Origin: Thermoleophilaceae bacterium
Lineage (GTDB): Bacteria; Actinomycetota; Thermoleophilia; Solirubrobacterales; Thermoleophilaceae
DNA: 64,000 nt
Reading direction: 5' to 3'
Assembly: GCA_040901445.1 (NCBI GenBank)
Contig: JBBDYQ010000010.1
Coordinates: forward strand, 1 to 64,000
Shown: positions 92-6,914 of the stretch, in pieces
Layout: the number at the start of each line of letters is the position of its first letter
Numbering within the stretch: the stretch's first letter is position 1
The notes under the pieces: model-generated
What the model was told of the DNA's origin: nothing
Database searches by the model: none
What the model saw: only the letters and a program-made list of their open reading frames with translations
Translations under genes and position numbers: made by a program

Positions 92-1012
92 TCAGGCTGA
101 GCGCCTGTCACGGCGCTCCCGCTGCGGGCCCACCGTGTACTTCGGGTCGCGCGCCGACTGGAACCCCGCCCGGAACACCGACCAGCGCTCCAGCAGCGAC
201 CCGGCGAGGATGGCAGCGCCGCCGGCTGCCGCCAGCCGGCGGCTGCGGCGCCCGCCGAAGAAGGTGGTGGCGGCGCCGGCGGTCGTGAGGGTCATCGCCG
301 CGCGTGAGATCCGGCCGCAGGCGCCGGACTCATAGGGCGCGGCGAGGTCACCCAGGCGATGCTTCATCACCTGGCTCGCGGCGCCCTCGGCCAGCGCGCC
401 GCCCAGCGCCAGGCGGCGGGCCGGACCGGCGTCGCGCGGCGACGTGGCGATCGCGGCCATTGCGCCCGCGCTGGCCAGCGCGCTGCCGCCGAAGATGAAC
501 GGCAGCTCGCGCCGCGCCTCGTGCCAGACCGGCACCGCCGTGTCGGCCAGGAGCGCGGCCGTGTAGGTGGCCACCGGCATGCCGAGCACGGCGGCCGCGG
601 CCCCCGCGGCGCGCCCCGCCGGCCGCGGGCCCACGCCCAGCACGTCGTGCGCGGCGGCCGCGGTGATGGCCCCACCGGCGGCGGTGAGCAGCCACGACCC
701 CACGCTCATCGGCGACGTGACCTTGAACACACGCAGCATGTTGAGGAAGCGCGAGGGCCGGCCGAGGTCGGAGATGAGCAGCGCCGGGCTCACGGCGATC
801 CCCAAGAAGGACGCGATCCAGGCGTTGCGCGCGAGCCGCTCGTTGCCGGTGACGGAGGCGCCGAAGGCAAGCCCCGCCGACGCCCCCGCGAGCCCGCCGG
901 TGAAGAAGTAGACCGGGATCTCCCAGGTCCAGACCGGCTCCTTGATCACGGGGCGGCCGTAGTAGGAGTCCGGCCGCGCCGGCTCCACCATGCGCCGCTC
1001 ACGCGTGCTCAT
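92..1012 (-). CDS. nrfD: NrfD-type membrane subunit of formate dehydrogenase
   Basis: 306 aa polytopic membrane protein of the NrfD/PsrC (polysulfide reductase membrane subunit) family. This family passes electrons between a ferredoxin-like subunit and the quinone pool without haem. The N-terminus (YYGRPVIKEPVWTWEIPVYF) and the following Gly/Ala-rich hydrophobic segments, including SDLGRPSRFLNMLRVFK, are typical. It is the last gene of the fdhA-fdhB-nrfD unit, and its ATG overlaps the fdhB stop (ATGA). E. coli Fdh-N and Fdh-O use a cytochrome b subunit (FdnI/FdoI) in this place, so this complex probably donates electrons to menaquinone through an NrfD anchor instead. Family assignment is strong; the direction of electron flow is inferred. 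Confidence 0.88.
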   Translation of the reverse strand: MSTRERRMVEPARPDSYYGRPVIKEPVWTWEIPVYFFTGGLAGASAGLAFGASVTGNERLARNAWIASFLGIAVSPALLISDLGRPSRFLNMLRVFKVTSPMSVGSWLLTAAGGAITAAAAHDVLGVGPRPAGRAAGAAAAVLGMPVATYTAALLADTAVPVWHEARRELPFIFGGSALASAGAMAAIATSPRDAGPARRLALGGALAEGAASQVMKHRLGDLAAPYESGACGRISRAAMTLTTAGAATTFFGGRRSRRLAAAGGAAILAGSLLERWSVFRAGFQSARDPKYTVGPQRERRDRRSA

Positions 1013-1875
1013 CGCCGCCCGCCGATGAAGGCCGCGGCCACGCCCGCCCCCACTGCCAGCGCCGCCGCTCCCACCGCCCGCCAGATCTCCGGCAGGTCGA
1101 AGGTGGTGTCCACCGGGTCGGGCGGCAGCCCGTACACCTCGGGCTCGTCGAGCAGGAGGAAGAAGGCGCCGGCGGCGCCGATGCCGTCGCCGGGCCCATC
1201 GAGGTAGAGGCGCGCGTCGGCCAGCCCCTGCTCCTTCAGGCTCTCAACCCGCGCGCGTGCGCGCGTGAGCAGCTCGTCGTGCTCGCCGAACTGGATCGAA
1301 TCGGTCGGGCACGCCTGCGCGCAGGCGGGCTCCCTGTCGTCCTTCAGGCGGTCGTAGCAGAGAGTGCACTTCCACACCCGGCCGTCCTCCTCGCGCCGGT
1401 CGAGCACGCCGAACGGGCAGGCCGGCACGCAGTAGCCGCAGCCGTTGCAGACGTCCTCCTGCACGACGACGGTGTCGAACTCGGTGCGAAACAGAGCCCC
1501 GGTGGGACACACGTCGAGGCAGGCCGCGTGCGTGCAGTGCTTGCAGACGTCCGAGGACATCAGCCAGCGCATGCCGCCGTCCGCCGCCATCCCGCCGTTC
1601 TCCTGCGCGAGCTCGTTGGCGGCGGCGACCTTCACGAGGTCGCCCTCGCCGTCGTCGGCGCTGAGCGGCACCCGCTGCTCCACGAACGCCACGTGTCGCC
1701 AGGTGTTGGCGTTCAGCTCGCTGGTGTTGTCATAGGACTCTCCGGTGAAGCCCTGGTGGTCGTCGGGGATCCCGTTCCACTCCTTGCACGCCACCTCACA
1801 CGCCTTGCAGCCGATGCAGACCGAGGTGTCGGTGAAGAAGCCCACGCGCTCCCGCTGTTCCGGCCCGTAGGTCAT
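1009..1875 (-). CDS. fdhB: formate dehydrogenase iron-sulfur (beta) subunit
   Basis: 288 aa FdnH/HybA-like electron transfer subunit. Four [4Fe-4S] cysteine clusters are visible: CIGCKACEVACKEWN near residue 18, CKHCTHAACLDVCP, CNGCGYCVPACPFG, and a last set made of CTLCYDR plus CAQACP. One hydrophobic segment near the C-terminus (AVGAAALAVGAGVAAAFIG) resembles the FdnH membrane anchor. I chose the ATG at 1873-1875, which overlaps the fdhA stop by four bases (ATGA); the frame stays open further upstream but that extension is only the antisense shadow of fdhA. The protein should relay electrons from the molybdopterin subunit to NrfD. Confidence 0.93.
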   Translation of the reverse strand: MTYGPEQRERVGFFTDTSVCIGCKACEVACKEWNGIPDDHQGFTGESYDNTSELNANTWRHVAFVEQRVPLSADDGEGDLVKVAAANELAQENGGMAADGGMRWLMSSDVCKHCTHAACLDVCPTGALFRTEFDTVVVQEDVCNGCGYCVPACPFGVLDRREEDGRVWKCTLCYDRLKDDREPACAQACPTDSIQFGEHDELLTRARARVESLKEQGLADARLYLDGPGDGIGAAGAFFLLLDEPEVYGLPPDPVDTTFDLPEIWRAVGAAALAVGAGVAAAFIGGRR

Positions 1876-4800
1876 GAGCGGCGCCCGCGGTACCCCGCCA
1901 CGAACGCCGGCAGCGCCGGCCCGCGCGGACGGCGCCCCGGCACGATGTCGCAGGTGGCGGCCTTGGCCTCCTGGATGTGCACGTTGGGGTCGAGCACGAT
2001 CGCGAAGAGGTCGTTGGCGGAGTCGCCCACCGACACCCCGCGCCATCCCCAGTGGTAGGGCAGGCCCACCTGGTGCACGGTGCGGCCGTCCATGCGCAGC
2101 GGCGCCATCCGCTCGGTCACGAGCACGCGCGCCTCGATCGCGCTCCGGGCGGAGACGATCGTGGCCCACTCGCCGTGCTCGAGCCCGCGCTCGGCGGCCA
2201 GCTCGGGCGAGATCTCACAGAACATCTCCGGCTGGAGCTCGGACAGGTGGGGCACGGTGCGGCTCATGCCGCCCGCGGTGTGGTGCTCGGTGAGCCGGTA
2301 GGTGGTGACCACGTACGGGAACACGCCCCCGGCGTTGTCCTCGTTGCCCGGCCGCTGGAACTGCTCGCGCGCGGGGTTGGACTGCTGGCCGTAGAGCAGG
2401 TTCTCGACGGGCGACTCATGCGGCTCATAGTGGGTCGGGAAGGGCCCGTCGGTCAGCCCCGCCGGCACGTACAGCCAGCCGCGGCCGTCCGCCTGCATGA
2501 CGAACGGCTGGTCGCCGCGCAGGGCGTCCTCCGCGCGCGAATTCCTGGACGGCTCGTAGTCCGGCGGCATGGACGCCTTGAAGTCCGGCACGTCGTAGCC
2601 CGTCCACTCGCCCTCCTCGGGGTCCCACCAGACGTACTTCTTGCGCTCCGACCACGGCTTGCCGTCGGGATCGGCCGAGGCGCGGTTGTAGATGATGCGC
2701 CGGTTCATCGGCCATGCCCAGGCCCACTCGGCCGCCACCCAGTCCTGCTCGCCCCCGGGCTTGCGCCGCGCCGTCTGGTTCACGCCGTCCGCGTAGCAGC
2801 CGGAGTAGATCCAGCAGCCGCAGGCGGTCGAGCCGTCGGCCTTCAGCGAGGTGTAGCCCGGCACGGGATCGCCGCCGGCGGTCTCGTAGCCGTTGATCTC
2901 CCGCAGCACGGCCTCGGCCTCGGGCTCGTCGTGCGGGCCGTGCGTCGGGTAGTCCCACGTGAGGTCGAGCACGGCGCGGTCCTTGGGGTCGCCCGAGGCG
3001 GCGAGCTTCTCCCGCACCCGCTTGCCGAGGTGGTACATGAACCACAGCTCGGAGCGGCAGTCGCCCTTGGGCTCCACCGCCTTGTGGTGCCACTGGAGCA
3101 GGCGCTGGGTGTTGGTGAAGGTCCCGTCCTTCTCCGTGTGGGCGGCCGCCGGCAGGAAGAAGATCTCGGTGCCGCAGTCCTCCGGCACGATCTCGCCCGT
3201 CTCGACCTCCGGGCCGTCCTGCCAGAAGGTGGCGCTCTCGATCAGCGAGGTGTCGCGCACCACCAGCCAGTCCAGCTCGGCCAGCGCCAGCCGGTGGAGC
3301 CTCGAGTTCGAGGAGCCGACGGCAGGGTTCTCCCCCATCACGAAGTAGCCGCTCACCTTGCCGTCCAGCATGTCGAGCGCCGTCTGATAGGCGGAGTGGC
3401 TGCCGTTGATCCTGGGCAGGTTGTCGAAGGCCCAGTCGGTCTCCTCCGTGGCGGCGTCTCCGTACCAGGCCTTCATCAGGCTCGTGAAGTACTCCTCCAT
3501 GTGGCCCCAGTAGCCGGCGTGCGCGGCGTTGGCCTCCACGTACCCGCGGTGGTTCTGGTGCGCATGGGGATGCGGCATGGGCAGGTAACCCGGCAGGATG
3601 TTGTAGAGCGTCGGAATGTCGGTGGAGCCCTGGATCGACGCGTGGCCGCGCAGGGCCAGGATCCCGCCGCCCGGCCGCCCGATGTTGCCCAGCAGCAGCT
3701 GGACGATGGCGGCGGCGCGGATGTACTGGACGCCCACGGTGTGCTGCGTCCAGCCCACCGCGTAGCAGAAGGCGCTGGTTCGCTCACGGCCGGAGTTCTC
3801 GCAGAGCGACTCCGCCACCTCGAGGAACGTCTCCTTCGGGACGCCGCAGATCCTCTCCACCATCTCCGGGGTGTAGCGCCGGTAGTGGCGCTTGAGCAGC
3901 TGGAACACACAGCGCGGGTGCTGCAGGGTGTGGTCCACCTCCGGCGGCTCGCCGTGCTCGAGGCGGCCCCCATGCGCGCCGTGTGACTGCTCGCCCAGCA
4001 GCGAGCCCTCCTCGCGCTTGCCCGCCGACGCGTAGGTGACCATGCCCTCGTACTGCCAGCTGTCCTGCGTGTACTGGCCGCTGTCGGGGTCCCAGCCGGA
4101 GAACAGGCCGTCGCCGTCCTCGGCGTCGGTGTAGCCCTCGTTGATGATGGTCGCGGCGTTCGTGTAGCGGTCCACGTATTCCGGGAACCAGCGCTCGTTC
4201 TCGAGGATGTAATTGACGATCCCGCCCAGGAACGCAATGTCGCTGCCGGCACGCAGCGGCACGTGCAGGTCCGCCAGCGCGCTCGTGCGCGTGAAGCGCG
4301 GGTCGACGTGGATGATCTTCGCCCCGTGCTGCTTGGCCTCCATCACCCACTGGAAGCCCACGGGGTGGCACTCGGCCATGTTCGAGCCCTGGATGACGAT
4401 GCAGTCGGAGTTCTGCAGGTCCTGCTGGAAGGTGGTGGCGCCGCCGCGACCGAACGAGGTCCCGAGACTCGGGACCGTGGAGCTGTGTCATATGCGCGCC
4501 TGGTTCTCGATCTGCACCGCGCCCATCGCCGTGAAGAACTTCTTGATGAGGTAGTTCTCCTCGTTGTCGAGCGTGGCCCCGCCGAGGTGCCCGAAGCCCA
4601 TCGTCCGGTGCAGCTTGCCGCCCTCGGGCAGCTCGTCCTCCCAGCCGGACTCACGGGCGGCAATCACGCGGTCGGCGATCATGTCCATCGCGGTGTCGAG
4701 GTCCAGGTCCTGCCAGTCGCGGGCGTTGGGCGGGCGGTAGCGCACCGTGTACACGCGCTCGGGGCTCTGGACGAACTGCTTCGAGGCCGCGCCCTTGGGA

Positions 4801-5033
4801 CACAGGCGCCCGCGCGAGATCGGCGAGTCAGGGTCGCCCTCGATCTGGGTGATCTCCCCGTCCTGCACGTAGACCTTCTGGCCGCAGCCCACGGCGCAAT
4901 AAGGGCAGATGGACTGCACCACCCGGTCCGCGGAGGCCGTCCGCGGCCTCAGCTCACGCGACCGCTCAGAGCGCGCCGCGCGGCCGAGGGCCTTCGGATC
5001 TCCGCGGAGCTGTTCCAGGAGAGGCGCGCGCAC
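1872..5033 (-). CDS. fdhA: formate dehydrogenase alpha subunit, selenoprotein (UGA = Sec)
   Basis: Molybdopterin bis-MGD formate dehydrogenase, about 1053 aa when the in-frame UGA at 4490-4488 is read as selenocysteine (residue about 182). The N-terminal half has the [4Fe-4S] motif CPYCAVGCG...GRLCPKG and ends IENQARI. After the UGA the frame resumes with HSSTVPSLGTSFGRGG and SNMAECHPVGF, collinear with E. coli FdnG/FdoG, whose Sec lies in the same ARV-U-HxPTV context. Conventional gene calling would split this gene or start it at an internal ATG (4379). The start is uncertain: GTG at 5033 or TTG at 5042, 6-15 bases after the sigma factor stop. I see no twin-arginine signal, so the subunit may face the cytoplasm. 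Needs SelABCD from elsewhere in the genome. Confidence 0.9.
4458..4476 (-). promoter_or_regulatory. SECIS-like hairpin downstream of the fdhA UGA
   Basis: Eleven bases after the UGA, the coding strand carries a perfect inverted repeat: stem GGTCCCG / CGGGACC around a loop AGTCT. The loop begins 18 bases after the UGA and contains GU, the feature SelB recognises in bacterial SECIS elements such as E. coli fdhF. Position, stem length and loop all fit a bacterial SECIS; function is inferred. Confidence 0.75.
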
Positions 5034-5047
5034 GCCGGGCAAGCTTC

Positions 5048-6103
5048 TCAGGCCGCGTCGCGCAGCGCCTCGAGCTCGCGCTCCTCCGCGAGCTGCATGA
5101 GCGCCTTGCGCTCGATCTTGCGGACGCCCTCGGCCGACATGCCCAGCTTGCGGCCGGCCTCGCGCAGCGGCGTGGGCTCGTCCCCGTTGATGCCGTAGCG
5201 CAGCTTCACCACCTTGCGCTGGATGTCGGGCAGGCGCTGCAACGCGCGCTCGATCACCTCTCCGCGCAGGCCGATGGTGAGCTCCTCGTAGGGCGATGCC
5301 GCCTCGCCAGGCAGCAGGTCGCCGAGGCTCGTCTCCTCGTCCTGACCCACGGGCCGGTCGATGCTCGTGACCACGCGCGCCATCTCGTGCACCTCGCGCA
5401 CCTGCTCCAGCGACAGCTCGGCGGCCGCCGCCACCTCCTCGTCGGTGGGGTCGCGGCCCAGAGTCGCGGAGAGCTCGCGCTGCGCGCGCTCCACCTTGCG
5501 CTCGCGCTGGCCGACGTGCACCGGCAGTCGGATGGTGCGCGCCTTGTTGGCCAGCGACCGCTGGATCGACTCGCGGATCCAGAAGGTCGCATAGGTCGAG
5601 AACTTGTAGCCCTTGCGGTAGTCGAACTTCTCCGCCGCCCGGATGAGGCCGAGGATGCCCTCCTGGATCAGGTCGAGCAGCGGCAGCTCGGTGCCCTGGT
5701 GCTTCTTGGCGATGGAGACCACCAGGCGGAGGTTGGAGTTGACCATGCTCTCCTTCGCCTCGAGGTCCCCGCGCTCCACGCGCTTGGCCAGCTCGACCTC
5801 CTCCTCCCTGGAGAGCAGCGGATGGCGGCGCACCTCGTTGAGGAAGAGCTGCATCGCATCGGTGGTGCTCACGGCCAGCTCTGCGTTGACGTAGCGGGCG
5901 GTCTCGACCTCGGTGCGGCCGCAGTCGTCGGAGACCTCGAGCCCGAGCGCGGCGATGCGCTCGCTCACCTCTTGGGCGGCGTCGTCGTCCGCGCCGGCCT
6001 CCTCGACCAGCTCGCTGAGCTCGGACAGGTTCACACAGCCCTCCTCGCGCCCATGCGCGAGAAGGGCCTCGACGCGGGAGTCGAAGTCGGATGTGGCGGG
6101 CAT
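5048..6103 (-). CDS. RNA polymerase sigma factor, RpoD-like (group 1/2)
   Basis: 351 aa sigma-70 factor. A short N-terminal part ([20 protein letters not shown]) resembles region 1.1. It is followed by region 1.2 ([20 protein letters not shown]), region 2 ([46 protein letters not shown]), region 3 ([12 protein letters not shown]) and region 4 with its helix-turn-helix ([19 protein letters not shown]). ATG 6103 begins MPATSDFDS, just before the conserved N-terminal part. It lies directly upstream of fdhA on the same strand with about 14 bases between, so the two are probably cotranscribed. Whether it is the housekeeping factor or a group 2 paralogue cannot be told here; its place at the head of an fdh operon suggests an alternative factor. 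Confidence 0.9.
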
Positions 6104-6154
6104 TGAGCGGGCTGTACCCGCATGACCATCGCAGCCAACCCCGGCTTCGAGCGG

Positions 6155-6167: not shown

Positions 6168-6914
6168 GTGAGCCAGGACGTCGAGATCCGCCGCGACGGC
6201 CTGGCGGACCGGGTGGCGGTGGAGGAGCCGCTCGAGATCCGCGTGGACGGCCGGCCGCTCGCGGTCACCATGCGCACGCCCGGCCACGACGACGAGCTCG
6301 CGGCCGGCTTTCTGCACGGCGAGGGACTGGTCACCGAGGCGCCCGCCGTGGGGCTCGCCGCCGACCTCGCGGCCAACGTCGTCGAGGTGGGCGGCCCGCT
6401 CGCGTTCGAGCCCGGCGAGCGGCGCTTCTACACCACCTCGTCCTGCGGCGTGTGCGGCAAGGGCGCCCTGGAGGAGGTCGCGGTGCACGCGCCGCCGCTG
6501 CCGCCCGGGCCCGTGCTCGCCCGCGACCTGCTCGCCGCCCTCCCCGAGCGCCTTCGGCAGCCCGCCTTCGAGCGCACCGGTGGCGTGCACGCCACCGGGC
6601 TGTTCGACGCCTCCGGCGAGCTGCTGCTCGCGCGCGAGGACGTGGGCCGCCACAACGCGATGGACAAGGTCGTCGGGCGCTGCCTGCTCGACGGCGCGCT
6701 GCCCCTGCACGAGCAGGTGCTGTGCGTGAGCGGCCGGCTCTCCTTCGAGCTCGTCCAGAAGGCGGCCGTCGCGGGCTGCCCCGTGCTCGTGGGCGTCAGC
6801 GCCCCCACCTCGCTGGCGGTGCGCCTCGCGGCCGACCGCGGAATGACGCTGTGCGGCTTCGCCCGCGACGCGCGCATCAACGTGTACGCGGGCGCCGAGC
6901 GGGTGGCCGGGTAG
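6168..6914 (+). CDS. fdhD: formate dehydrogenase accessory sulfurtransferase FdhD
   Basis: 248 aa FdhD. In E. coli this protein carries sulfur from IscS to the bis-MGD cofactor, making the Mo-S ligand that formate dehydrogenase needs. The catalytic CxxC loop is visible ([15 protein letters not shown], about residues 89-103), as are the family blocks [17 protein letters not shown]-like, [12 protein letters not shown]-like, [15 protein letters not shown] and [14 protein letters not shown]. It starts with GTG and is transcribed divergently from the sigma factor-fdh operon. Together with the selenocysteine alpha subunit this shows a complete local maturation set apart from selenium and cofactor synthesis. 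Confidence 0.95.

Follow-up and report, generated by a model that had tools for sequence, protein, structure and literature searches.

A formate dehydrogenase alpha subunit gene with a conserved in-frame UGA, predicted to encode selenocysteine, in a Thermoleophilaceae bacterium

Few bacterial selenoproteins are as widespread as formate dehydrogenase (FDH), and actinobacteria are known to have selenium-dependent FDHs. In an early survey, the FDH alpha subunit FdhA was present in 67 of 75 organisms that use selenocysteine (Sec) (PMC1794560). For the actinobacterium A. chiangmaiensis DSM 45062, the Sec-FDHs were linked to selenium-dependent formate removal in culture, and FDH, SelA, SelB and SelD were detected by proteomics (PMC7176365). 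Here we analysed a window of 64,000 nucleotides, the whole stretch of DNA examined, from a Thermoleophilaceae bacterium. The locus resembles that of A. chiangmaiensis DSM 45062, which has a Sec-containing FdhA with FdhB and FdhC and which expresses SelA, SelB, SelD and FdhD; it differs in that the listing for that strain groups SelA and SelB with its FDH1 cluster (PMC7176365), whereas in the genome studied here fdhA is on contig C10 and both selA and selB are on C15. We conclude that fdhA almost certainly encodes the catalytic subunit of a bis-MGD formate dehydrogenase, and that the UGA at 4490-4488 is almost certainly decoded as Sec, via SelB, tRNA-Sec and a putative SECIS element. The features of the window are as follows.

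92..1012, minus strand: fdhC, NrfD-family membrane subunit (PF03916, 41.1 bits)
1009..1875, minus strand: fdhB, iron-sulfur beta subunit (Fer4 domains), its ATG overlapping the fdhA stop (ATGA)
about 1872..5033, minus strand: fdhA, formate dehydrogenase alpha subunit, 1053 aa through one UGA (NF041513; PF04879, PF00384, PF01568)
4458..4476, minus strand: SECIS-like hairpin GGUCCCGAGUCUCGGGACC, 8 bp stem with a GUC loop, from 11 bases past the UGA (predicted fold; covariation)
4488..4490, minus strand: UGA codon, predicted selenocysteine, residue 182 counted from GTG 5033 (alignment with the X of 1kqf and 1h0h; homologue codons)
5048-6106, minus strand: sigma-70-family gene with regions 1.2, 2, 3 and 4 (domain matches)
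6168..6914, plus strand, opposite to fdhA: fdhD, formate dehydrogenase accessory sulfurtransferase (PF02634, 219.5 bits)

The fdhA reading frame and its family

Nucleotides 4490-4488 read TGA on the minus strand (TCA at 4488-4490 on the plus strand). When minus-strand positions 4976 to 1872 were translated with Sec at TGA, the protein was continuous; its one internal UGA lies in the context ...IENQARI-U-HSSTVPSLGTSFGRGG..., and the frame reached its terminal stop only at TGA 1874-1872. This confirmed the initial annotation, which had the frame ending IENQARI-UGA and then continuing. We propose GTG 5033-5031 as the start of fdhA, with TTG 5042 as a possible alternative. The initial annotation had further predicted that automatic annotation would yield two fragments or an internal ATG start, and the ORF list made under standard rules does break the gene, with one frame stopping at 4488 and another ORF, of 835 aa, opening at ATG 4379. 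Software that treats UGA as a stop would likewise split fdhA and drop its N-terminal Fe4S4 domain and metal ligand.

The split in this mechanical list is what two genes would give, the first coding for a short N-terminal product that stops at the UGA and the second starting from an internal codon, e.g. ATG 4379. We regard that arrangement as extremely improbable: the PF00384 molybdopterin match (residues 127-577) crosses the break, an internal start would cost the protein its Fe4S4 domain and metal ligand, and the stretch from the UGA to ATG 4379 is conserved in homologues.

Read through the UGA, FdhA is a single chain with Fe4S4, molybdopterin and dinucleotide-binding domains (Pfam PF04879, PF00384 and PF01568). 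It matched the NCBIfam actinobacterial formate dehydrogenase model NF041513 (formate_DH_Act; curated cut-off 1400 bits) at 1904.8 bits over model positions 7-1065, with exactly one TGA inside. This full-length match is far above the cut-off, the TGA falls at the Sec site, and we saw no difference of substance from the family. The 80 relatives that we fetched were 65–73% identical to FdhA over their best segments.

Among solved structures E. coli formate dehydrogenase N (1kqf) ranked first, ahead of further formate dehydrogenases, several of them named selenocysteine-containing. Both halves of FdhA aligned to the FdnG subunit of 1kqf, and in the printed alignments with 1kqf and 1h0h alike the UGA faced X, the Sec position, so that the placement of the UGA claimed at the outset holds against FdnG. 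The alignment with FdnG covers nearly the whole chain, and the Fe4S4 cysteines match as does the Sec position. Unlike FdnG, FdhA has no twin-arginine (Tat) signal evident by eye at its N-terminus. The systems also differ in the membrane subunit, which is of the NrfD type (PF03916) here, whereas FdnI of E. coli formate dehydrogenase N is a cytochrome b. Judged by these comparisons, FdhA is of the actinobacterial FDH type (NF041513) and no copy of E. coli FdnG.

Conservation of the codon and of a hairpin downstream

Across 88 sequences (87 homologues and the window), the codon at the UGA site was TGA in 75, TAG in 12 and TGT (Cys) in one. This bears on the possibility that the TGA arose by a sequencing error or by recent nonsense mutation, in which case fdhA would be a pseudogene or the gene of a Cys enzyme. 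The assembly is in 25 contigs and single-base errors do happen, but 74 of the 87 homologues, from independent assemblies, carry TGA at the same codon and another 12 carry TAG, the remaining fdhA frame is intact, and Sec machinery is present in the genome. With the stop codon conserved across genera, an error or nonsense mutation is strongly disfavoured, and we give it next to no probability.

The TAG codons were found in Blastococcus, Modestobacter and Geodermatophilus. The hairpin is kept at these loci (L042-L044, L048, L049, L051, L052, L061, L062, L068, L080 and L086). Geodermatophilaceae have already been described as using UAG for Sec, in formate dehydrogenases and with a tRNA-Sec whose anticodon is CUA (PMC5330540, citing Mukai et al. 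2016). At the single Cys locus (L104, in genome G066 of the same order), the orthologue is full-length and the hairpin sequence is altered. No SelA was found for G066 among the matches listed; a Cys orthologue with no listed SelA match is the pattern expected of a Sec-to-Cys replacement, which is the likely history of this locus.

Downstream of the UGA, the predicted hairpin has a fold energy that is ordinary for its base composition (z -0.18), and an Rfam scan of the window at gathering scores gave no matches; the case for it consequently rests mainly on covariation. Numbering from the U of UGA, pair 18-30, at third codon positions of Val and Gly, could form in 85 of the 88 sequences as C-G, U-A, U-G, G-C or G-U. 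Pair 21-27, at third codon positions of Pro and Leu, could form in 87/88; it is C-G, but G-C in the window and three others. For both pairs, none of 5000 shuffles reached the observed counts, where shuffling ignores relatedness and the set includes a few near-duplicate sequences. Pair 15-33 was paired in just 43/88, without support from covariation. The apex was GGUCU, AGUCU or AGUUU in every one of the 88 sequences, and the apex of the E. coli fdhF SECIS likewise has GGUC. That these synonymous sites pair in several ways is good evidence of a selected RNA structure, and a hairpin with a GU-containing apex downstream of the UGA suggests a putative bacterial SECIS.

Sec machinery in the genome and across the order

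The genome spans 3.54 Mb in 25 contigs, with a tool estimate of 100% completeness and 2.66% contamination. The initial annotation had stated that a genome without selA, selB and selC would refute the Sec reading. We found all of these genes, and selD, in the same genome.

C1:53610-53701: tRNA-Sec (selC), anticodon TCA (UCA), 68.7 bits
C15:181203-182459: SelA, 473.9 bits
C15:180136-181161: SelB, directly adjoining selA, 306.6 bits
C2:187483-188406: SelD, 379.8 bits

Weaker matches to the tRNA-Sec model (43–48 bits), considered as second selC copies, were tRNA-Ser genes by ARAGORN, and weaker SelB matches were taken as other translation GTPases. By eye, the SelD segment SHGAGCACK has Cys codons where some SelD proteins have Sec.

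The residue inserted at a UGA is not readable from sequence alone, and it might be an amino acid other than Sec, through genome-wide reassignment or leaky read-through. Reassignment is disfavoured by fdhA's own stop at 1874-1872, which is itself UGA. The presence of tRNA-Sec (UCA), SelA, SelB and SelD in the genome and of a SECIS-like hairpin after the UGA further argues against a non-Sec residue, which we hold to be most improbable. The selenoprotein reading of FdhA offered in the initial annotation is supported by the alignment of the UGA with X, the conservation of the codon, the covarying hairpin and the four sel genes; frame, homology, codon, hairpin and machinery are each observed here, and from the family we infer, with high confidence, that Sec is inserted in the Thermoleophilaceae FdhA.

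Among 101 genomes of the order, FdhA matched above the cut-off in 25, each with one TGA save the Cys case, and SelA was above its cut-off in 32. Agreement between the two was good but not perfect. Four of the 101 genomes had a TGA-containing FdhA match and no SelA match (G058, G070, G076 and G027), and these may have missing contigs; completeness is 72–87% for the first three and 97%, in about 110 contigs, for G027. The TGA-containing fdhA of G027 lies at C24:24329-27421. No strong tRNA-Sec match was found in G027, where the best, at 47.1 bits, is within the range of tRNA-Ser genes; either contigs are missing or its fdhA is no longer decodable. Seven genomes (G010, G025, G040, G001, G039, G069 and G052) had SelA above cut-off and no FdhA of the NF041513 family above its own, which points to further selenoproteins or to gaps in the assemblies.

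Neighbouring genes and the predicted role of FdhA

In related loci, fdhB was found near fdhA in 69/88 and an NrfD-type gene in 71/88, some loci being truncated by contig or locus ends. Upstream on the same strand, some 14 bases separate the end of the sigma-70-family gene from the proposed fdhA start. Sigma matches near fdhA in related loci were only distant (28–30% identity in those inspected), so this arrangement does not look conserved. Co-transcription of fdhA with the sigma-70-family gene, by which sigma factor and selenoprotein would be regulated together, is unlikely.

We envisage that FdhA would act as the catalytic subunit of a formate dehydrogenase whose bis-MGD cofactor carries molybdenum or tungsten. 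SelB and tRNA-Sec(UCA) would decode the UGA at 4490-4488 as Sec, with the hairpin just downstream directing insertion as a SECIS. Selenium would then coordinate the metal where formate is oxidised, and electrons may pass from FdhA to the iron-sulfur FdhB, on to the NrfD-type membrane subunit and probably to quinone. Here the metal and the electron acceptor are those suggested by the family.

Given the early survey, the actinobacterial Sec-FDHs already studied and an existing NCBIfam model for this exact family, the finding is correct and ordinary: fdhA is a textbook selenoprotein gene from a family that is well known, with nothing novel at the UGA itself. For this Thermoleophilaceae organism, it means that formate is probably oxidised in a selenium-dependent manner, and that the Sec machinery is retained for FdhA at least.
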